Shown here piece by piece: positions 273 to 16,567 of a stretch of 57,742 nt of DNA (the first letter of the stretch is position 1; every line of letters starts with the position of its first letter). The notes below the pieces were generated by a model. That model was not told the DNA's origin. It was given only the letters and a program-made list of their open reading frames with translations, and did not search any database. Source of the DNA: Planctomycetales bacterium (GTDB taxonomy: Bacteria > Planctomycetota > Planctomycetia > Isosphaerales > Isosphaeraceae); the NCBI GenBank assembly GCA_027449865.1, contig DAIDKV010000154.1, positions 1-57,742 on the forward strand, read 5' to 3'. Position numbers and translations under genes: made by a program.

Positions 273-881
273 TCATGCCGGACCTCCGCGGGACGGATGC
301 GCCCCAAGGACCAGGATACGGTGGTTCCGAAGCCGACCCGTGATACGGAACAGGAGGATCGCAAGGCAGAAGGCGGAAACAAGGAATTCCATCCACCGAA
401 TCCCGTTTCCCTGGCTCGGAGTCAACACGAGGCCGGTCCACGCACGCGATGCGAACAGGACGTCGGCGTCCACGACAACGGGCTCTCTGTCACCGTCAAT
501 GACCTGAACGAGCATGCCTGTATGCCCTACCGGCCGGACGACGAGGAAATGGCCTTCGCCCTCTCCCTTGACGAAGGCAAGCAATGGCCCTCGGATCTCG
601 GAACGTCGCCTGGGAAGAAGGACGGCATCGAGCGAGAGCCCCAGTCGCCGCGCGCCTTCGCGAAGGTCTTGGAAGGAATGACTCCCATCCATCGAATCCG
701 GGAGCACCTCGAAGACCCTGTCCAGATTGACGGAGTGGCCACGCAGCCGGAGGATCTGGTAGAGCGCGGTTGTACCGCAATCTCGACGTACGGAAGCCGG
801 CGTTTCTGGAGCGACGCGGGAATCCGAAGGCGCGAGGCCCAGCAGCACCGCGAATAGAGAATAGGTCGACCACCCTGTCAT
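273..881 (-). CDS. Membrane-anchored C39-like cysteine peptidase
   Basis: The 202-residue protein has a peptidase C39-like core. The nucleophile region reads DCGTTALYQILRLRGH with Cys35, the catalytic His111 lies in GHFLVV, and an Asp follows in VIDGD. C39 domains classically cut leader peptides after a double glycine, usually fused to an ABC transporter; here there is no transporter domain. The N-terminus (TYSLFAVLLGL) looks like a signal or anchor, and a C-terminal segment (MEFLVSAFCLAILLF) should span the membrane, so the active domain probably faces the periplasm. The start was chosen because its ATG overlaps the TGA of the upstream gene (TGATG), which implies translational coupling. It is the last gene of a five-gene leftward operon that also encodes a Cys-rich exported protein with a Gly-Gly-Gly site, a possible substrate. 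Fold confidence is fair; the substrate link is inference. Confidence 0.75.
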   Translation of the reverse strand: MTGWSTYSLFAVLLGLAPSDSRVAPETPASVRRDCGTTALYQILRLRGHSVNLDRVFEVLPDSMDGSHSFQDLREGARRLGLSLDAVLLPRRRSEIRGPLLAFVKGEGEGHFLVVRPVGHTGMLVQVIDGDREPVVVDADVLFASRAWTGLVLTPSQGNGIRWMEFLVSAFCLAILLFRITGRLRNHRILVLGAHPSRGGPA

Positions 882-2029
882 CAACGCCTCCGGTAGAGGA
901 GGAAGGCACCACCGAGAAGAACGACTCCGGTCACGCCGAGCCCGATCGCGGTCCATTCCGACCAGCCAGGACCAGCCCTCGCCGCCGAGGACGCTTCCAG
1001 GCGGTCGGCCTGACGGTCGGCCTCCTCAAGCGCCTTGTCAAGTTGCCTCTGGCGACCCTCCGCATCGGAAGGTGGACGCTCCGCCCTGGGCTCCGTCCGA
1101 GACTCGAGCTGGCGTTGAAGCCTTCGAAGTCCCTCGTCGTCCGCGACCTTCGCGTGATTCTTAACCGAGAAAAAACGATCTCCAAGACCTTGATTAAACT
1201 TCACGGTATTGAGCAAGATTTGGTGTACTCCAATCGACTGAGGCTCCTTGGTAGAAAACTCCCTTCGATCCTTGCTCAGATTACCGACGTAAATCCAACT
1301 TTTCCCCGTGGCTGGGAACCAGAGGTGACGCCCACTCGGAAGAATCATCCTTTCGAGGTGTGAGATCTGGACCCGAGACTGAAGTACGTTGCCGGCATAG
1401 AATTCCCATCGAAGCGGGTAGCCGTCACGTTCCAGGTCGACCCAGAGCTGAATGTAGGGCAGTTCACCCACCCAACCCTTAAGAAGAGATTTCGGCTGCT
1501 TCAGCATCCGGATCCTCAAACAACGATGACCATCGATGATCTCCCATCCCTGGATCTCTGGCTCGTGCTCCGGCGCCTCACCGAGCCACGAGAAATACCA
1601 GGGCAGAAAAATGGTCTCCGGACTCGTCGTGATGGCCAGCGTTCCTGGCCCACCCGGTTTGGTAACAGGCTCGCGCCTCGCAACAGGCACCGATTGCGAA
1701 TCCGGCGAAGCGTTCAGGAATTCAGCGCGATCGTGGAGGATGGCAAAAATGGTCCGACTCAAGGGTCGGTCGGTTCTGCCATAGCCAAACACGTCCAAAA
1801 GGGTGGCGCCATCTGCGCTACGATAAGCGTAATATGTCTGAAATCGATTGGCACTTTGTGACTCATTCGCGCCCGGCCCACCCCGAGCCAATGTGCCTTC
1901 GTGAAGGAACGAGACATCGTGGAAGGATGAGCGATACCGCTCGAACAAGGCGAAGACCGCCCTGGAATCGATTCCAACGTCGCCACGTGCCACAGAAGCC
2001 AGGACGAGGGCTAGCGAGGCCGCAAACAT
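881..2029 (-). CDS. LolA-like exported protein with C-terminal membrane anchor
   Basis: The 382-residue product starts with a signal peptide (MFAASLALVLASVARG). The ATG at 2029 was chosen because it opens directly on this signal; an in-frame upstream ATG at 2173 would overlap the preceding gene. The middle of the protein has the beta-rich pattern of outer-membrane lipoprotein sorting (LolA-like) folds: GWEIIDGHRCLRIRM, then LWVDLERDGYPLRWEFY, then a strand ending in HLWFPATG. A charged coiled-coil stretch (about residues 300-345, rich in R, E, Q and D) precedes a C-terminal transmembrane helix ending in LLYRRR, so the protein is probably held in a membrane with its bulk outside. It overlaps the C39-like gene by one base. 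The LolA-like assignment rests on pattern only; no lipid-carrier function is shown. Confidence 0.65.
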   Translation of the reverse strand: MFAASLALVLASVARGDVGIDSRAVFALFERYRSSFHDVSFLHEGTLARGGPGANESQSANRFQTYYAYRSADGATLLDVFGYGRTDRPLSRTIFAILHDRAEFLNASPDSQSVPVARREPVTKPGGPGTLAITTSPETIFLPWYFSWLGEAPEHEPEIQGWEIIDGHRCLRIRMLKQPKSLLKGWVGELPYIQLWVDLERDGYPLRWEFYAGNVLQSRVQISHLERMILPSGRHLWFPATGKSWIYVGNLSKDRREFSTKEPQSIGVHQILLNTVKFNQGLGDRFFSVKNHAKVADDEGLRRLQRQLESRTEPRAERPPSDAEGRQRQLDKALEEADRQADRLEASSAARAGPGWSEWTAIGLGVTGVVLLGGAFLLYRRR

Positions 2030-2081
2030 GGATAAGCCCCTAATCGATACGGAGTACGAGAGTGTCTCCCCATTAGTATCA

Positions 2082-2612
2082 CTACTGAGCAGGGGGCACG
2101 CCTTGGGCATTGTAATCGATGGCGGTCGTATAGCAGTCCCACACTCCAGTCGCAACACACTCGAAGGCACCATTAGGCAGGACCGTGCATAAACCTAGTT
2201 GCCCCCCATTGTCCGAACCACAGTCCTGGAGTTGGGGATTGTTGGGATCGACGGCAACATTGCCGAACTGCATTTGCTTAATCGTATAATTCGACATGAG
2301 ATTGCACACAATGCACGCGGATCCAGGAATCCTGCAGCCGCCGCCCAAGCCGCTGACGTAGGGACCTGTACCGGGAGGTGGCGGAGGATTTGATAGATTG
2401 GCCGTATTGACATTTTCGGTCGTGCAATTGCCTGAAATCGATTTCATCGTCTTCGGGTTGGAACCTCGGATTCGGGGCAGGAGATGGTCAGGAATGGGAG
2501 AAGTGTCCCCCGCGGAGACGAGCATTTCGATGAGGAGCAGGCTGGCGAGCAGAATCACGTAAGGCGTCCACAACGAGGAGATCAGAAAGACGATCTTCAG
2601 GTAACGAGTCAT
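2082..2612 (-). CDS. Small Cys-rich exported protein with Gly-Gly-Gly motif
   Basis: I do not recognise a family. The 176 residues begin with a long hydrophobic segment (about residues 5-33), which could be a signal or an N-terminal anchor. A Pro-rich stretch (NPPPPPG, about residue 75) follows, then GLGGG at residues 88-92 directly before Cys93. Eight cysteines lie at about 63, 93, 100, 103, 131, 142, 152 and 160, which suggests a disulphide-stabilised extracytoplasmic domain. A good ribosome binding site (AGGAG, about 9 bases upstream) supports the start. It sits between a DUF1559 protein and a LolA-like protein in an operon that ends with a C39-like peptidase. C39 enzymes cleave after Gly-Gly, so cleavage before Cys93 to release a Cys-rich fragment is an attractive inference, not shown by sequence alone. 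Confidence 0.7.
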   Translation of the reverse strand: MTRYLKIVFLISSLWTPYVILLASLLLIEMLVSAGDTSPIPDHLLPRIRGSNPKTMKSISGNCTTENVNTANLSNPPPPPGTGPYVSGLGGGCRIPGSACIVCNLMSNYTIKQMQFGNVAVDPNNPQLQDCGSDNGGQLGLCTVLPNGAFECVATGVWDCYTTAIDYNAQGVPPAQ

Positions 2613-2651: not shown

Positions 2652-3683
2652 TCAATCCGCGATCTCTCCTCCATTGCGAGTTCCGAAGGCTCGCCAGGTG
2701 GAGAGATCAATCCTTTCATGGACAAAACGAACCGATCCATCGGCCATGAGCATGTTGATGCCGCCACGATGCCAGCTCCGGGCCGTTGTCATTCCCATGG
2801 AGAGAATGGCGTGGGGCATCAGGCAATCCGGTACGCGGCCGTTCGGAACTTGAGTGTGTGTGTACAGGGTCTGTTCGCGGCCGAGCCAGAACCACCACTG
2901 ACCGCCAATCGTAAAGACCGACTTCGCGACGGGATGTGCCGACACGCGGCAGCTCTGAAGGAGCTGGTTGGCCGAGACCGCCCCCGGATACATCGGCCAA
3001 AAATCCCGCGACGGGACGGGTCTGTCGGATTGCCCCGAACCCCTCAGCCGCTCGGAAAACGCCGCGGTATGACTCAATCCGTCAGTCACGTACGATGGCC
3101 TGACCAGTCCGATCTCAAGAAGGAAGCCATTCCCGCTATCGCGGTATTCCGCCCATTCGCAGCAATTCGGGCCAAGACCAACATTCGCTCGATAATTGTT
3201 CCCTGACCCGGCGAAAGGACCACCATCGGACGGGCAAAGAAACGTGGAAACACGGACTCGGAGTGCCGTGGATTGAAGCGAGAACAGGGATTGCATCAAA
3301 GGAGTCGGACCGACAGAAAAATTGTCAATAGGTATTGTTCCCGCACTGAAATTCACCGCGTCATAAATATCAGGGAGATCCAGGTAGGGGAGCAAGCGAA
3401 CTTGAGGCGAGAAGCATCCCTCATAGACGGTCTCTGTCGCGGAAGGATCGACCTTCGAGCGGATACCCCAGGTTGTGTTGCAAATGGGATAGCACTGCGA
3501 ATCGGTATCGTAGCGGTGAAGGGCCAGCCCGATCTGGTACAGGTTGTTCTGGCAACTTGCCCTTCTAGCTGCTTCTCGGGCCGACTGCACCGCGGGGAGG
3601 AGGAGGGAAACGAGGATGCTGGTGATCCCGATGATGACCAACGCCTCGATCAGCGTGAAGCCCTGATTTTTATACACATACAT
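2652..3683 (-). CDS. DUF1559 protein with prepilin-type N-terminal signal
   Basis: The 343-residue product starts MYVYKNQGFTLIEALVIIG, a type IV prepilin cleavage and methylation signal (G/FTLIE) followed by the pilin hydrophobic helix. Next comes the DUF1559 hallmark LLPAVQSAREAARRASC and, at the C-terminus, a GGINMLMADGSVRFV segment typical of that planctomycete-expanded family. The ATG at 3683 was chosen because it immediately precedes the prepilin signal; the longer upstream frame has no support. It starts 4 bases after the stop of the DUF1573 gene without a clear Shine-Dalgarno, so translation is probably coupled. DUF1559 proteins are thought to be secreted or surface-assembled pseudopilins, but their role is not known. 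Confidence 0.88.
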   Translation of the reverse strand: MYVYKNQGFTLIEALVIIGITSILVSLLLPAVQSAREAARRASCQNNLYQIGLALHRYDTDSQCYPICNTTWGIRSKVDPSATETVYEGCFSPQVRLLPYLDLPDIYDAVNFSAGTIPIDNFSVGPTPLMQSLFSLQSTALRVRVSTFLCPSDGGPFAGSGNNYRANVGLGPNCCEWAEYRDSGNGFLLEIGLVRPSYVTDGLSHTAAFSERLRGSGQSDRPVPSRDFWPMYPGAVSANQLLQSCRVSAHPVAKSVFTIGGQWWFWLGREQTLYTHTQVPNGRVPDCLMPHAILSMGMTTARSWHRGGINMLMADGSVRFVHERIDLSTWRAFGTRNGGEIAD

Positions 3684-3687
3684 GTCA

Positions 3688-4753
3688 TCAATCCATTGTA
3701 GCGATGATGAATACACGCAACCTGGCCGTGGGCTCGTCGGGGCGATCGGTCTCGATGGCCATGGTCCATTCGCGACAGTTCGCGACTCGTTCACGAACAA
3801 ACCGTATCGTGATTTCGTGACTCGACCTCGCTTCCCGGCTGAACGAGGCTTCGGCCAAGAAGTCGAGAGGGCCGATGGTCTTGATGCGAAACGGCTGATT
3901 ATCGCATGAGCGGACTGTGATACACTGGGGCCGCCGCACCTCATCCACGCTGATCGCTAGATTCCTCGGCCTGATCTCGAGGGGGACAGGTACAATCCAG
4001 GACACTCCTATCGATCGCTTCCGTCCTTGCGGCCAACCCAAGGTGATCGAGCCACGTTGAATGCCGGAATGATCACAGGGAGGCAATTCCACTTCCACGT
4101 CACGGCGACTTGCCGTGAACCGACCGTTTTCCAACGTCGTCTGAATCCCGTGAATGAACCTGGCCCTCAAAGGGAGTTCGGCATCAACCCATTCGGGTGG
4201 TACCTCACCTTCCTCGCCGATCCGACGGGTGACGACCTTCAGGACGTACCGACCGGATCGATTCATCGGAAGCGTAAGTGTCTGATCGCCCGGATTCTGA
4301 ATTTCCAGCCCCGGGTAAAGATCGGCTACGAGCACAAAGGTGCTGACTTTGGGATGATTGCCGTCCGTCTCGATGATAAAGCCGGCACGCTTCCTCTCAT
4401 ATCGATCGCTCAGCACCTTCATCGCGGTGGGAATCAAGCATTGTCCACCAGGAGGGACAACATCCCGCGATAGGGCACCGATCTCCGAGCAGCATGGAAC
4501 CGTGGCCGTGGACCCTAGAATTCGAATCGCGCGGCGGGTCGAATTCCTCAATAGGAAATCGTGGCGTAGAGTCTGTCCACGGGCGAGAACGGGGCCAAAG
4601 CTGTATTCTTCATAACCCCCCCCCTTGCTTTTCATTAGTTGCGGAAATCGCGACAGCCTCGTCGACGACGGCGGATATGTCCGGCAGCGGGCGCTCCCCA
4701 GAGCAACCAACAAGTGGGATGACGGCCAGCAGGAAGATCCGGCTTGCACGCAT
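3688..4753 (-). CDS. DUF1573-like lipoprotein, interrupted by a frameshift in a G9 tract
   Basis: An ATG at 4753 opens a classic lipoprotein signal (MRASRIFLLAVIPLVGCSG, lipobox Cys). That frame ends at 4610 after ATNEKQGGG. The rest of the protein lies in the next frame, entering as GGGYEEYSFGPV, and runs to 3688. The two frames meet exactly at a run of nine G on this strand (4616-4624); eight or eleven G would give one continuous protein of about 354 residues. The body looks like DUF1573, with beta-sandwich repeats about the relation of a mean force or value: FLLRNSTRRAIRILG, a conserved CC motif, then PPGGQC. DUF1573 proteins are periplasmic or outer-membrane associated in planctomycetes and Bacteroidetes. 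It is the first gene of the operon. The break may be a sequencing or assembly slip, a real pseudogene, or a phase-variable switch; the sequence alone cannot decide. Confidence 0.7.
4616..4624 (-). repeat. G9 homopolymer at the frameshift point
   Basis: Nine consecutive C on the plus strand (G on the coding strand) separate the lipoprotein signal frame from the DUF1573 body frame. Loss of one base restores the reading frame. Confidence 0.9.
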
Positions 4754-4810
4754 CAGGTAGCGCTCCTTGACACAAGGACAACCATGACTGGGGAGCGGCC
4801 TCAAATCATT

Positions 4811-4846
4811 TAGAATACGATATTCTACGTTGAGATCGAAAGTCAA
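4811..4846 (-). promoter_or_regulatory. Promoter with palindromic operator candidate upstream of the DUF1573 operon
   Basis: On the minus strand TTGACT (4846-4841) is followed after 18 bases by TATCGT (4822-4817), a sigma-70-like pair about 60 bases upstream of the lipoprotein ATG. The -10 box lies inside a perfect palindrome, TAGAATACGATATTCTA (4811-4827, 7-base arms and 3-base centre), which is a natural position for a repressor. The regulator is not identified and none is encoded next to it. Confidence 0.45.
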
Positions 4847-10132: not shown

Positions 10133-13100
10133 TCACCCCGTCAACTCGCTCGCCCGCTTCAGCCCGGCCGGCTTGCCATAGGCCAGGAACGCCTTCACCG
10201 CCTTATCGAGGAACGTCCGGAAGCCCTCGGTCTCGAAGTCGGCCAGCGCGTGGCCGACGATCGCGACCTCGTGGAACGGCCCGAGGTCGCCAATTCGGAT
10301 CCTCGGCAGGTCGCTCAGCACCGGCGGGTCGACCTCGTGAAAAGGTCGCAACGCCAGCAGCTTTTCCACCGCGCCGGTGCGGAAGGTCGTCCTTGGGACG
10401 AAGAACCGGAGGGTGACCACCCACTCCGCCGACGTCGTCGCGTGGAAGAACGGGAAGCGGATCATCGATCCATCCCCGGGATTGATCCGAACCACCCCGC
10501 GCTGCGTCCATTCGGTCGGTGCGAATTGCTCCTTTCCCAGCTCCTCGATCCGGTCGACGATCTTTTCCAGGATCTGGCCGTCCCACCGCGGCGGCTTCCC
10601 GTTCGCCGCGATCCGGTCGCGGGTATGCCACTTTCGGCCGTCCACTTCCCAGGGCGATTTGTCGATGGGTCGGTTGTCGGCGGGCCCGGTCGATCGCTGC
10701 TGGGACGAGCGATCCGCCTGCTTCGCGGCCTTCGGGTCGAAGCGAGGGCGCTCGGCCATCGGGCCGGCTTCGAGTACCGGCTTCAGAAACCGAGACGTGT
10801 GGCCCCGGCCCAGGGCGACAATCGCCTCGGGCGGCCCCTCGCCAACCAGGTCGCCGCCGCCCTGGCCGGCCTCGGGACCGAGTTCGATGATCCAGTCGGC
10901 CGTCTTGATCACGTCGAGATTGTGCTCGATCACAACCACCGTGTTTCCCAGGTCGGCCAGGCGGTGCAAAACGGTCAGGAGCTTTCGGACGTCGTCGAAG
11001 TGCAGGCCGGTGGTCGGCTCGTCGAGGATGAAGAGCGTTTGGCCGGTGTCGGGACGGGCGAGCTCGGCCGCGAGCTTCACTCGCTGCGCCTCGCCGCCGG
11101 AGAGCGTCGCCGCTGACTGGCCGAGCGAGACATACCCAAGACCCACGTCGGAAAGCGTCTGCAAGATTCGGCGGATCTTCGGAACGCTCGCGAAAAGTTC
11201 GAGCGCCGCGTCGACCGACATCCTCAGCACATCGGCGATCGACTGGCCGTGGAACTTCACCGCGAGCGTTTCGGGCGTGTACCGGGCACCGTCGCAGGCG
11301 TCGCAGGTGATCCAGACATCGGGCAGGAAATGCATCTCGATTTTTTTCTGACCGGCGCCCTCGCAGGCCTCGCACCGGCCGCCGGCCTGGTTGAAGCTGA
11401 AGCGTCGCGAGGTATAGCCGCGCATCCTCGCCTCGGGGATCTTCGCGAAGAGTTCGCGGATCAGGTCGAAGGCGCCGGAGTACGTCGCTGGGGTTGAGGT
11501 CGGAGTGCTTCCGAGCGGCGATTGATCGACGCTGATCACCTTGTCGATGTAGCCAAGTCCCTCGATCGACTCGTGAGCGCCCGGGGTGAGCTGGGCCCGG
11601 TGCTTGGCCCGCGCGGCGGCCTTCCAGAGGATGTCCTCGACGAGTGAGCTTTTGCCCGAGCCCGAGACGCCCGTCACGGCGGTCAGGACGCCGATCGGGA
11701 AGCGGATGTCGATGTTGCGGAGGTTGTGCTGGTGCGCTCCTTTCACGACGATCGCCGGAACTCCCGACTCCGCCGAGGCCGGGCGCCGGTTGGTCGGGAC
11801 CGGGATGGCGGCCTTGCCCGAGAGGTACTGGCCGGTCAGCGAGTCGGCCGAGGCGCCCACCTTCTCGGGCGGGCCGGCCGCGGTGATCCGACCTCCTCCC
11901 TCGCCCGAGCCGGGGCCGAAGTCGACGAGGTGGTCGGCCGCCTCGATCACCTCGCGGTCGTGCTCGACCAGGACGAGCGTGTTCCCCAGGTCGCGCAGGT
12001 GCCGAAGGGCGGCCAGGAGCCGGCCGTTGTCGCGCGGGTGCAGGCCGATCGTCGGCTCGTCGAGGACGTAGACCACGCCCGTCAGCCCGCTCCCGATCTG
12101 GCTCGCCAGGCGGATTCGCTGGCTCTCGCCGCCGGAGAGCGTCGGCGTCCCGCGCGCGAGCGTCAGGTAATCGAGGCCGACGTTCACCAGGAACGTCAGC
12201 CGGTCGCGGACCTCGCGCACCAGGTCGCCGGCGATGTGCCGCTCGTCCTCGCCGAGCGGGAGATCCCGGAAGAACGCCAGGGCCCGGTCGAGCGGCCACC
12301 GGCTGATCTGGTCGAGCGTGAAGCCCTGAAACCGGACCGCCGCCGCGTCGTCCCTCAGCCGGGCTCCCATGCAGCCGGCGCACGGGACATCGTCGACCAT
12401 CCCCTGCAATTTATATCGATAGATGAACGAAACACGGCCTGCTTCCTCGATCGCCGGAAACAGCCCCTTGTACTGGAACGAGAACGAGGGACCGAGTCCG
12501 GAAACGTGATACCAGGTCTCGCCGGCGCCGTGGAGAATGATCCGGCGGGCCCGGCCGTCGAGGTCGTCGAACGGGACCGAGATGTCGAATCCCTCGGCGA
12601 TCGCGATCGCGGCGATCATCCGGGCGAAGTCGGGGTTCGAGGCGAAATCGGGCCAGACGGCGACCGCTCCATCGCGGAGGCTGAGCCGGCCATCGGGGAC
12701 CAGGACCGCCGGGTTGGCTCCGTGCTGCACGCCGAGCCCCTGGCAGATCGGGCACCAGCCCAGCGGGCTGTTGAACGAGAAGTGGTGCGGCTCCATCTCC
12801 TCGAAGCTTCGCCCGCAACCGTCGCAGACCCGGTGCTGGCTGTATCGGTCGACCGGCCAGCTCGCCTCGTCGGCCTCGTCGCCAACCCTCGCGACGTGGA
12901 CCACCCCCTTGCCCAGGTCGAGCGCCGACTCGATCGAGTCGGCCAGTCGCGACCGCGTGGAACGCCGGACCACCGCCCGATCGACGACCACCTCGACCCG
13001 ATGCTTCCGGCGGTGCGTCAGCTTCGGCGGTTTGTCCAGGTCGACCGACTTCCCGTCGACCCGGACCCTCGCGAACCCCGAGGCTCTTAAATCATCCCAG

Positions 13101-16100
13101 AGACTTTCATACGTTTCCCCGTCGCGCCGATCGACGGGCGCCATCACGTAGACCTTCGACCCCTCGGGCAGGTGCAGCACCTTCTCGACGATCTCGTCGG
13201 CCGTCTGCGTCCCGATCGGGACGTTGCACTTCGGGCAATGCGGCTGACCCAATCTGGCGAACAAAATGCGCAGATAATCGTGGATCTCGGTGACGGTGCC
13301 GACCGTGGATCGAGGGCTCTTGCTGGTCGTCTTCTGCTCGATGCTGATCGCCGGCGAGAGGCCCGTGATCCGCTCGACCTTCGGCTTCTGCAACGGGGCG
13401 AGGAACTGCCGGGCGTAGCTGGAGAGACTCTCGACGTACCGCCGCTGCCCCTCGGCATACAGCGTGTCGATCGCGAGCGAACTCTTGCCCGACCCGCTCG
13501 GGCCCGAGCAAACCGTCATCCGGTCGCGGGGGATGTCGACGTCGATCCCCTTCAGGTTGTGCTGAGCGGCGCCCCGGATCTCGATCGTCGTGAGCCCGGC
13601 CTCGGACGAGCCGCTTTTCTTCGGAGCCTTCTTCGCCGCCACTTTTTTCCGGCGCTTCGACTTCTCCTCGCGGACACGGTCGAAGAGCTTGCGAAGGGCC
13701 TGGCCGGTGTGGCTCGCCTCGACCCCGGCGATGACCTCGGGCGGTCCCTCGGCGATCACCCGGCCGCCGCCGGCGCCTCCGTCGGGGCCCATGTCGATGA
13801 TCCAGTCGGCCGTCTTGATCACGTCGAGATTGTGCTCGATCACGACGACCGTGTTCCCCTGCGAGGTGAACCCGTGCAGGACCTCGAGCAGCTTCCGAAC
13901 GTCGTCAAAGTGCAGGCCGGTCGTCGGCTCGTCGAGGATGTAAAGCGTCTTGCCGGTCCCCCGTTTGACCAGCTCTCGGGCCAGCTTGATCCGCTGCGCC
14001 TCGCCGCCGGAGAGCGTCGGCGAGGGCTGGCCGAGCTTCAGGTAATCAAGCCCGACATCGTGAAGCGTCCGGAGCATCCCGGACACTTTCGGCAGGTTCG
14101 CGAAGTGGTCCAGCGCCTCCTGAACGTCCATGTCGAGAACGTCGCTGATGCTCTTTCCCTTGAACCGAACGTGCAGCGTCTCGCGGCCGAACCGCTTCCC
14201 GCCGCAGACCGGGCACGTCACCCAGACATCGGCCAGGAAGTCCATTTCCAGCTTGTTCGAGCCGTTCCCCTCGCAGGCCTCGCATCGGCCGCCGGGAACG
14301 TTGAAGCTGAACCGGCCGGGCGCGTAGCCCCGCGCCTTCGCCTCGGGAAGCTGAACATACAAATTCCGAATATGATCGAAGATCTTGGTATAGGTCGAGG
14401 GATTCGACCGGGGCGTCCGGCCGATCGGCGACTGGTCGATATCGATCACCTTGTCGAGCTGGTCGAGGCCCTCGATCCCGTCGTGCTCGCCGGGCGAGGT
14501 GAGCGCGCCGTTGAGGTCGCGCGCCAGGGCCTCGCGAAGGATGTCGCCGACGAGCGAGCTCTTGCCCGAGCCCGAGACACCCGTCACGCAGATGAACGTC
14601 CCCAGTGGGAACGTGACATCGATATTCTTGAGGTTGTTCTGCCGGGCGCCCCGGATGATGATCGATCGGCCGTCGGGCTGCCTGCGGGTCTCGGGAATCG
14701 GGATGGTTTTCCGCCCGGACAGATAGGCGCCGGTGAGGCTCGGCTCGGCTCGCGCCAGGTCGTCGAGCGTTCCCTCGGCGACGACCTCGCCCCCCTTCAC
14801 GCCCGGACCCGGGCCGAAGTCGACCAGGTGATCGGCGGCCCGCATCGTGTCCTCATCGTGCTCGACGACGACCACCGTGTTGCCGAGCCGGGCGAGCCGG
14901 CGGAGGGTCAGCAGGAGGCGGTCGTTGTCGCGCGGGTGCAGGCCGATCGAGGGCTCGTCCAGGATATACAGCACGCCGACGAGCCCGGCGCCCACCTGGC
15001 TCGCCAGCCGGATCCGCTGCGCCTCGCCGCCGGAGAGCGTCGGCGCGGCGCGGTCGAGGGTCAGATAATGCAGCCCGACGTCGATCAGGAAGGTCAACCG
15101 GGCCCGGATCTCCTTGAGCAGCTCCTCGGCGATCGTCCGCGAGACAGGGTCCAGCGGGCTCGGGGCCTCGCCGGTGGCGTTCCCCTCGGCGAGGCCCTCG
15201 AAGAAGCGGGCGACATCGCCGATCGGCAGGGAGCCAAGGTCCACCAGGCTTTTGCCGCCGACCGTGACGGCGCGAGCCCTCGGATTCAGCCGCGCCCCCC
15301 GGCAGTCGGGACAGGTCACGCTCCGCATGAACGGTTCCAGTTGCGCCTTGATCGGCCCGCCCGAGGCGCCCTTGTACTTCTCGACAAGCTCGTTCGCGAC
15401 ACCAGACCACTTCTCGGCGTGCGACCAGACCTTGCCGCGCCCTCGCCAGCGCTGGACGATCACCCGGTCGCCGGTCCCGTACAACCAGGCCCGCCGCCAC
15501 TTCTCATCGAGGTCGCGCCATTTGCCCTTGAGCATCTTCCCCTTCGGCGGACCGTCGGGGTCGGATTCCAGGTTGGACGCGACCCCCTCAAACAGGTGCC
15601 GGCGCCACTTTCCCAGCTCCTTCACCGGCCCGAGCGGCGCGATGGCGCCCTCCCAGACCGATTTCGAGGGGTCGGGCACAAGCAAATCCGGGTCGAAGTC
15701 GTGGCGGATGCCAAGCCCGTCGCAGGCCGGACACATCCCCTGCGGACTGTTGAAGCTGAAAAGCTGCGGACTCGGCGGATCAAAGCCAATCCCGCATCCG
15801 GGACACGCGTACCGAGACGAGAGGAGCAAATCCGGCCGATCATCCCGGGCGACGATCACCGTCCCCTCGCCAAGCCTGAGCGCCTGCTCGACGGCCTCGG
15901 CCACCCGGCCGCGCAGAGCCTGGCTGTTTGCCATTTTTAGCCGATCAATCACCACCTCGATATTGTGCTTGATCTGCCGGTCGAGCGCCAGGTGATCGGA
16001 GAGGTTGACCACCTGCCCGTTGACCCGCGCCCGGAGATACCCGGCTCGCGAGAGTTCGGCGAAGAGGTCCTTGTACTCTCCCTTCTGGCCTCGGACGACC

Positions 16101-16567
16101 GGGGCAAGGATCAGGAACCCCGCGTCCTCGGGAAGGTCGTCCAGAATCCGGGCGACGATCTGCTCGCGGGTCTGGGCGGCGACGGGCTCTCCGCAGTTCG
16201 GGCAGTGGCCCAGCCCGACCCGGGCGAAGAGGACGCGGAGATAGTCGTTGATCTCCGTGATCGTGCCGACCGTGGACCGAGGGTTGCGCCCGCCGGTCTT
16301 CTGCTGGATCGAGATCGAGGGGCTCAGTCCGTCGATCCGGTCCACCTCCGGCTTCGGCATCTGTCCGAGGAACTGCCGGGCGTAGCTGGAGAGACTCTCG
16401 ACGTACCGCCGCTGCCCCTCGGCATACAGGGTGTCGAAGGCGAGCGAACTCTTCCCCGAGCCCGAAACGCCGGTCAGGCAGATCAGCTTGCCGCGAGGCA
16501 GCGTCAGCGAGATGTCACGTAGATTGTGCTCGCGCGCGCCCCGGATCACGATGTCCGATGCGGCCAT
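10133..16567 (-). CDS. uvrA: Double-length UvrA (two fused excinuclease A proteins plus extra domain)
   Basis: UvrA is the damage-recognising ATPase of nucleotide excision repair. Ordinary UvrA has about 940 residues; this protein has 2144 and holds two complete copies. Copy 1 (about residues 1-955) has Walker A GVSGSGKSS at 33-41 and again near 665, signatures LSGGEAQRIRLASQ and LSGGEAQRIKLARE, and zinc-finger pairs (CPGC/CPAC, CEAC/CPVC). A Lys/Arg-rich linker (KRRKKVAAKKAPKK, about 955-985) joins copy 2 (about 988-1935), with Walker A GPSGSGKSS near 1025, another near 1636, LSGGESQRIRLASQ and LSGGEAQRVKLAAE, and its own CDGC/CPIC and CEAC/CDAC fingers. All four ATPase sites look intact. 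UvrA normally works as a dimer, so the fusion may act as a built-in dimer. A C-terminal segment of about 200 residues (1936-2144) has no UvrA match I recognise. A GGAGAGGAA motif precedes the ATG. Confidence 0.97.
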   Translation of the reverse strand: MAASDIVIRGAREHNLRDISLTLPRGKLICLTGVSGSGKSSLAFDTLYAEGQRRYVESLSSYARQFLGQMPKPEVDRIDGLSPSISIQQKTGGRNPRSTVGTITEINDYLRVLFARVGLGHCPNCGEPVAAQTREQIVARILDDLPEDAGFLILAPVVRGQKGEYKDLFAELSRAGYLRARVNGQVVNLSDHLALDRQIKHNIEVVIDRLKMANSQALRGRVAEAVEQALRLGEGTVIVARDDRPDLLLSSRYACPGCGIGFDPPSPQLFSFNSPQGMCPACDGLGIRHDFDPDLLVPDPSKSVWEGAIAPLGPVKELGKWRRHLFEGVASNLESDPDGPPKGKMLKGKWRDLDEKWRRAWLYGTGDRVIVQRWRGRGKVWSHAEKWSGVANELVEKYKGASGGPIKAQLEPFMRSVTCPDCRGARLNPRARAVTVGGKSLVDLGSLPIGDVARFFEGLAEGNATGEAPSPLDPVSRTIAEELLKEIRARLTFLIDVGLHYLTLDRAAPTLSGGEAQRIRLASQVGAGLVGVLYILDEPSIGLHPRDNDRLLLTLRRLARLGNTVVVVEHDEDTMRAADHLVDFGPGPGVKGGEVVAEGTLDDLARAEPSLTGAYLSGRKTIPIPETRRQPDGRSIIIRGARQNNLKNIDVTFPLGTFICVTGVSGSGKSSLVGDILREALARDLNGALTSPGEHDGIEGLDQLDKVIDIDQSPIGRTPRSNPSTYTKIFDHIRNLYVQLPEAKARGYAPGRFSFNVPGGRCEACEGNGSNKLEMDFLADVWVTCPVCGGKRFGRETLHVRFKGKSISDVLDMDVQEALDHFANLPKVSGMLRTLHDVGLDYLKLGQPSPTLSGGEAQRIKLARELVKRGTGKTLYILDEPTTGLHFDDVRKLLEVLHGFTSQGNTVVVIEHNLDVIKTADWIIDMGPDGGAGGGRVIAEGPPEVIAGVEASHTGQALRKLFDRVREEKSKRRKKVAAKKAPKKSGSSEAGLTTIEIRGAAQHNLKGIDVDIPRDRMTVCSGPSGSGKSSLAIDTLYAEGQRRYVESLSSYARQFLAPLQKPKVERITGLSPAISIEQKTTSKSPRSTVGTVTEIHDYLRILFARLGQPHCPKCNVPIGTQTADEIVEKVLHLPEGSKVYVMAPVDRRDGETYESLWDDLRASGFARVRVDGKSVDLDKPPKLTHRRKHRVEVVVDRAVVRRSTRSRLADSIESALDLGKGVVHVARVGDEADEASWPVDRYSQHRVCDGCGRSFEEMEPHHFSFNSPLGWCPICQGLGVQHGANPAVLVPDGRLSLRDGAVAVWPDFASNPDFARMIAAIAIAEGFDISVPFDDLDGRARRIILHGAGETWYHVSGLGPSFSFQYKGLFPAIEEAGRVSFIYRYKLQGMVDDVPCAGCMGARLRDDAAAVRFQGFTLDQISRWPLDRALAFFRDLPLGEDERHIAGDLVREVRDRLTFLVNVGLDYLTLARGTPTLSGGESQRIRLASQIGSGLTGVVYVLDEPTIGLHPRDNGRLLAALRHLRDLGNTLVLVEHDREVIEAADHLVDFGPGSGEGGGRITAAGPPEKVGASADSLTGQYLSGKAAIPVPTNRRPASAESGVPAIVVKGAHQHNLRNIDIRFPIGVLTAVTGVSGSGKSSLVEDILWKAAARAKHRAQLTPGAHESIEGLGYIDKVISVDQSPLGSTPTSTPATYSGAFDLIRELFAKIPEARMRGYTSRRFSFNQAGGRCEACEGAGQKKIEMHFLPDVWITCDACDGARYTPETLAVKFHGQSIADVLRMSVDAALELFASVPKIRRILQTLSDVGLGYVSLGQSAATLSGGEAQRVKLAAELARPDTGQTLFILDEPTTGLHFDDVRKLLTVLHRLADLGNTVVVIEHNLDVIKTADWIIELGPEAGQGGGDLVGEGPPEAIVALGRGHTSRFLKPVLEAGPMAERPRFDPKAAKQADRSSQQRSTGPADNRPIDKSPWEVDGRKWHTRDRIAANGKPPRWDGQILEKIVDRIEELGKEQFAPTEWTQRGVVRINPGDGSMIRFPFFHATTSAEWVVTLRFFVPRTTFRTGAVEKLLALRPFHEVDPPVLSDLPRIRIGDLGPFHEVAIVGHALADFETEGFRTFLDKAVKAFLAYGKPAGLKRASELTG

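Follow-up and report, generated by a model that had tools for sequence, protein, structure and literature searches.

A putative lipoprotein gene divided at a G tract, and the operon behind it

Inspection of the window, a 57,742 nt stretch of DNA from a Planctomycetales bacterium of the family Isosphaeraceae (contig DAIDKV010000154.1, positions 1–57,742), showed a putative lipoprotein gene on the minus strand whose two parts lie in different reading frames. The leader frame (4610–4753, minus strand) starts at an ATG at 4753–4751 and runs for 43 codons, MRASRIFLLAVIPLVGCSGERPLPDISAVVDEAVAISATNEKQ, up to a tract of nine G residues (G9; 4624–4616, minus strand). Past the tract it reads TTA and stops at a TGA at 4612–4610, giving a peptide of 47 residues. 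Judged by eye, this peptide contains a signal peptide that ends in LVGC, which we take to be a lipobox. The body frame (3688–4614, minus strand) is free of stops from just past G9 to a TGA at 3690–3688, and comprises 308 codons plus the stop. An earlier note on this DNA had placed the meeting point of the signal frame and the body frame exactly at the nine G, and had calculated that G8 or G11 would give a continuous protein; both statements were borne out when leader, tract and body were read in their frames. A GTG at 4749 opens the longest ORF containing the body; this ORF takes the leader out of frame and has no signal peptide, an example of how genes of this kind can be split or mis-started in annotation. 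A Shine-Dalgarno-like AAGGAG is seen upstream of the ATG (4763–4768, minus strand), and a possible promoter, recognized by consensus match only, lies further upstream (TTGACT, 18 bp, and a weak -10, TATCGT; 4817–4846, minus strand).

The earlier note had also described the body as DUF1573. This label fits the family to which the gene belongs (see below) better than it fits the window protein: 19 of the 21 family members matched the Pfam model DUF1573 (PF07610) weakly (best E 1.2e-7), while the window protein gave no match to it at E ≤ 1. The Pfam search of the window body returned nothing solid, and an NCBIfam hit to OS_HP2_seleno was discarded, its 20 bits being far under the cut-off of 100. 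The AlphaFold2 model of the body is all-beta (mean pLDDT 90.4, pTM 0.69). Its N-terminal 100 residues matched the Ig domain of VesC (Z 10.5, rmsd 2.5, 96 residues aligned) and, as the N-terminal domain, the PapD-like domain of HYDIN (Z 8.8, rmsd 2.5, 96 aligned). In the model, the N-terminal domain is thus a HYDIN/VesB-like Ig fold, an assignment of fold that says nothing on function. A sequence match to PF22544 was found in seven of the 21 family members, the window protein not being among them. The hits of Foldseek and VIA-align were mostly Ig-like repeats in many different proteins, and beyond the N-terminal domain the Z scores of 7–8 mean little. Judging by the ranges that the fold matches cover, the modelled body probably consists of three Ig-like domains, and is likely to be a lipid-anchored rod.

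The lipoprotein gene is followed on the same strand by four further genes. The first encodes a DUF1559 pseudopilin (2652–3683, minus strand), the ATG of which lies 4 nt past the lipoprotein stop; it matched Pfam PF07596 (E 1.5e-42, 147 bits against a cut-off of 23.3) and N_methyl (E 3.5e-5, 23.6 bits against 21.2). Behind it come a small Cys-rich exported protein (2082–2612, minus strand) and a membrane protein without Pfam match that we call LOL (881–2173, minus strand), both delimited as ORFs; that LOL is LolA-like is a guess. The last is a membrane protein resembling C39-type peptidases (273–956, minus strand; Pfam PF03412, E 1.4e-6, 28.6 bits against a cut-off of 22). The start codons of these last three genes are uncertain. 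When the window proteins were compared by tblastn with the 20 other family loci, the pseudopilin was found behind the lipoprotein in all 20, although in G038:C46 only its first residues precede the contig end (E 0.001). LOL was found in 16 loci and the Cys-rich protein in six; C39 was found in 15, and the five loci that lack it are truncated at contig ends. The core of the operon is therefore lipoprotein, pseudopilin, LOL and C39. A pseudopilin start motif was found in 18 of the 21 loci, the other three giving no motif hit. In 14 of these 18 the pseudopilin starts between -4 and +4 nt from the lipoprotein stop, and in the remaining four at 16–34 nt. This proximity indicates that whatever happens at the G tract happens at the head of an operon. 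Elsewhere in the window (10133–16567, minus strand), an open frame of 2144 amino acids reads, by eye, like two tandem copies of a UvrA-type excinuclease.

Runs of G are depleted in the window, with seven overlapping G7 matches against 30.8 ± 7.4 in dinucleotide shuffles. The genome as a whole (8.48 Mb, 278 contigs) contains 33 overlapping G9 matches, which collapse to 20 tracts, and three of these 20 fall within the 5′ portion of lipoprotein genes that belong to operons of this kind: that of the window (contig C154) and those in contigs C61 and C76. The three copies carry G9, G14 and G10, respectively. In C61 the G14 comes right after an ATG, the gene is out of frame from its ATGs, and tblastn identified lipoprotein, pseudopilin, LOL and C39. 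In C76 a shorter lipoprotein carries the G10 at its ATG, in frame; within 6 kb downstream lie, as judged by eye, a 665-aa membrane-protein frame, a DUF1559-like pseudopilin, and LOL-like, Cys-rich and C39-like genes. A further lipoprotein, in C111, belongs to the wider DUF1573 kind; it is intact and has no repeat. Proteins of the MutS family, which would restrain slippage, are present in the genome.

Long G tracts were also seen at other genes of this genome. Three leaders, in contigs C174 (L096:5773), C184 (L097:6777) and C224 (L098:7478), contain G9, G11 and G9, respectively, and stop just past the tract, the body being open in another frame; all three are near contig ends. The C174 and C184 bodies are 54% identical over 186 aa, and those of C224 and C184 78% over 55 aa, so that these genes are possibly a second phase-variable (poly-G) family. 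In C132 (L089:3679) an open frame of about 1170 aa has a G9 within its apparent signal peptide, in frame in the assembly. In C93 (L088:3567) and C20 (L094:3983), tracts of G10 and G11, respectively, precede a possible start codon by a few bases and could thereby alter the spacing of the ribosome binding site.

Simple repeats at the 5′ end of the gene family

The window body was searched for in 148 genomes, and a 21-row family alignment was run on 45 genomes of the same bacterial family. The lipoprotein family comprises at least 21 loci in these 45 genomes, each scoring at least 269 bits, the next locus having 166 bits; since at most 51 first-look candidates were scored per genome, further members may have been missed. 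Simple sequence repeats (SSRs) were counted when they reached nine units for mononucleotides, seven for dinucleotides, six for trinucleotides and four for tetra- to heptanucleotides, and the 5′ region was defined as the 290 bp from 260 bp before to 30 bp into the body. With all 21 rows used, 18 members carried an SSR in this region. These repeats are of six kinds: runs of G, of C and of AT, and three pentanucleotides (CCTTG in three loci, GCTGT, CTGCT).

The G tracts are G9 in the window, G13 in G004:C208, G12 in G008:C407, G10 in G038:C214, G9 in G031:C231, G10 in G001:C440, G14 in G000:C61, G9 in G037:C126, and G10 and G12 in G044:C38 and G044:C120; G008:C361 has a G23 at a contig end that may be an artefact. 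The pentanucleotide arrays are (TTGCC)5 in G038:C433, (CCTTG)6 in G017:C81 and (CTTGC)7 in G017:C20, which represent a single unit in three phases, plus (GCTGT)9 in G020:C228 and (CTGCT)4 in G038:C46. Two loci carry other repeats, namely C11 (G044:C89) and (AT)9 (G007:C334). Those relatives that have been named are all metagenome-assembled genomes, two of them with a coverage near 1 given in the contig name, and any single tract length may be wrong. Three members lack a counted repeat: G043:C12; G004:C1170, in which a short CCGA repeat marks the frame break; and G028:C42, which has an A8 that falls below the threshold.

These repeats, in 18 of 21 members, fall within 5,759 bp of 5′ region, against six repeats in the other 235,304 bp of those loci. 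One of those six, a G21 in G044:C89, adjoins a run of N and looks like an assembly artefact; it was nevertheless kept in the background. The expected number of repeats in the 5′ regions was 0.15 (P 1.4e-31, with loci assumed independent and thresholds set after a first look). When the window, as the row of discovery, and the contig-edge rows G008:C361 and G031:C231 were removed, 15 of 18 members still carried a repeat (expected 0.16, P 8e-25), and two alternative thresholds applied to this reduced set gave 16 and 13 of 18. In a control of 16 distant DUF1573 relatives, most of which show a YDFGTVARGS-like motif, no repeat was found at the start; L022 (G006:C37), a second-tier locus with a G25 at a contig end, was left out of this control, and its inclusion gives one of 17.

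The earlier note had proposed comparing tract length among homologues. In the clade of the window, which allows a comparison at the species level, four of the other six rows have G9, G10, G12 and G13 at the equivalent site, a fifth has the contig-end G23, and one (G043:C12) has none. Along the tree of the family the type of repeat was somewhat clustered, with nine changes among eight labels compared to 12.1 in shuffles; despite this clustering, several gains of repeats are needed because the units differ. That repeats of differing type share one place suggests that instability, and not a particular peptide, has been selected, and different unstable repeats at the same gene end in relatives look like a random on/off switch. 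Between the options left by the earlier note (frameshift, error or phase switch), the phase switch is strongly favoured by the G tracts of the clade together with the G tracts and other unstable repeats near the start in more distant members.

Among 15 second-tier or distant loci, C8–C10, pentanucleotide or AC repeats were present near the start in five (G004:C130, G044:C136, G028:C289, G016:C1 and G008:C349), contig-end runs of G in two (G006:C37 and G031:C510) and weak repeats only in one (G020:C26); start-proximal repeats were absent in the other seven. The second-tier lipoprotein of G028:C289 (L132) has 21 perfect ACGAG units directly after its ATG, the longest array seen, with a variant unit and another run behind them. 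The more distant lipoprotein of G016:C1 (L137), from a single-contig assembly, has a C9 near its start and, two bases further on, a T7.

The G9 of the window could be a mistake of sequencing or assembly, the true tract being in frame, the gene constitutively ON and the tract a mere nuisance. Single units of homopolymers are a common indel error, the contigs of two relatives have coverage near 1, and the G runs at the contig ends of G008:C361, G006:C37 and G031:C510 look like artefacts. An error of this type would, however, account for one tract length and not for differing repeats concentrated at the 5′ end of one gene; it fails on the pentanucleotide and AT arrays, and two of the three copies in this same genome are out of frame from their ATG. 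We therefore regard an error as unlikely.

Reading frames and the state of the gene

The frames of the 21 rows were tallied by eye, by hand and by script. Leader and body share a frame in four (G038:C214, G037:C126, G001:C440 and G043:C12, the last from a TTG and without any counted repeat). In eight the leader is clearly out of frame: the window, G004:C208, G008:C407, G031:C231, G028:C42, G044:C38, G044:C120 and G004:C1170. Another eight (the five pentanucleotide rows, G000:C61, G044:C89 and G007:C334) are out of frame from an ATG, or from a GTG in G020:C228, but have a nearby in-frame GTG or TTG that might serve as start, so that OFF is uncertain for these rows, one copy of the window's own genome included. 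The leader of the remaining locus, G008:C361, is cut by the contig. By eye, many family members have lipobox-like ends similar to the LVGC of the window, while at least one leader, that of G037:C126, resembles a lipobox-free membrane anchor. Both ON and OFF frames thus occur, across relatives and paralogues only, the in-frame set also including G000:C76.

Of 19 rows compared, 16 have a TTGAC upstream; two of the 21 have no room for it. This comparison of 19 rows revealed no convincing common -10, and it was therefore used for G001:C440 only. There the frame is intact and the G10 begins four bases after a TTGACA, as it would in a promoter spacer; the best -10 of this putative promoter matches three of six letters.

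An off-frame tract could also be read through by programmed recoding, RNA polymerase or the ribosome slipping on the G tract so that every cell makes some full-length protein. RNA polymerase and ribosomes, like DNA polymerase, can indeed slip on homopolymers, as stated for poly-AT (PMC3711429), and a fixed off-frame tract would fit. Nevertheless, tract lengths vary and both frames occur in the family, and ribosomal frameshifting leaves unexplained the AT and pentanucleotide arrays and the putative promoter tract of G001:C440. These observations make recoding very improbable.

The closest pair of loci, 80% identical, consists of G038:C214, with G10 and an intact frame, and G031:C231, whose G9 is out of the corresponding frame; the leader of the latter is cut by a contig end, and its frame was judged by alignment with the former. 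This pair showed a dN of 0.125 and a dS of 0.63. Such values bear on whether the window gene is an ordinary pseudogene, hit by a one-off frameshift and on its way out, as the missing in-frame signal peptide might suggest. The dN is well below the dS even though one copy is out of frame, the 308 codons of the window body are free of stops and the operon genes follow it, and the frame breaks of the family coincide with repeats. Decay of the gene therefore appears the least credible of the explanations considered. Intact bodies behind broken leaders rather fit the prediction of a reversible switch.

Taken together, the G9 of the window is very probably an SSR contingency locus that is OFF in this assembly. 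Slipped-strand mispairing at replication would add or drop repeat units at the junction of leader and body, and the change in repeat number would shift the frame between one giving the full lipoprotein (ON) and one giving only the 47-residue leader peptide (OFF), the sequenced copy being in the latter state. As the pseudopilin start adjoins the lipoprotein stop, termination in the leader should lower the pseudopilin too, and OFF would perhaps also lower the rest of the operon. Slippage in living cells, its reversibility, surface exposure of the protein and polarity within the operon are what we infer from these arrangements.

Relation to known switches and implications

On/off switches based on repeat tracts are well known from pathogens such as Neisseria, where the repeat of the opa genes sits in the signal-peptide region. 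The present family resembles opa in being a multi-copy family of probable surface proteins, each copy of which would be switched through the frame by its own repeat number, and in having CCTTG and GCTGT arrays (four loci) within the signal-peptide region. The opa repeat ranges from (CTTCT)2 to (CTTCT)30 and differs between strains (PMC5320596). In contrast to opa, the family described here belongs to a different phylum, encodes an unrelated lipoprotein with Ig-like domains, uses several types of repeat and has an operon behind it; further, switching is established for opa, while here it is predicted. Poly-G tracts of G8–G15 switch pilC1, pilC2, hpuA and other neisserial genes (PMC5320596), and the G9 of the window equals the modal poly-G length of nine given for the gonococcus and meningococcus (PMC5953494). 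The window gene is not homologous to pilC1, pilC2 or hpuA, and its tract lies past the lipobox, between leader and body. Tracts in promoter spacers are described for fetA and porA (PMC5320596); G001:C440 would be similar, with an intact frame and a G10 shortly after TTGACA, although its -10 match is poor. Homopolymer tracts at gene starts inactivate genes across prokaryotes according to the survey by Orsi et al. (2010; PMC2831843), which dealt with poly-A and poly-T, whereas long G or C tracts plus other repeats are seen here in one gene family. As a mechanism this is classical; what looks new is the gene family, the phylum and the mix of repeat types. Among the matches listed in a literature search, no paper on phase variation in Planctomycetota was recognized from its title or the start of its abstract, and none with both DUF1573 and DUF1559 was found; most subscription journals lie outside that search, which makes this weak evidence of novelty.

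For the Isosphaeraceae as a whole, we lean towards a picture in which a genome holds several operon copies that switch independently, a repeat at the start of each copy flipping that copy ON or OFF at random. The operon would put a pseudopilin and an Ig-domain protein with a lipid anchor on the cell surface, and a clone would be a mix of surface types. Cells might benefit by evading phages, predators or grazers, or by following a mixed strategy of adhesion. Since these bacteria are presumed to be free-living, presumably in soil, selection would likely come from phages, from predatory bacteria or from grazing protists. Ocean and soil bacteria are singled out in a 2025 review as a gap that has yet to be closed (PMC11868660). 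If the picture drawn above is true, Planctomycetota would have their first described contingency-locus system; a family with such varied repeats in an environmental lineage makes the use of these switches without a host testable, and the switch gives a handle on a conserved, uncharacterised operon.
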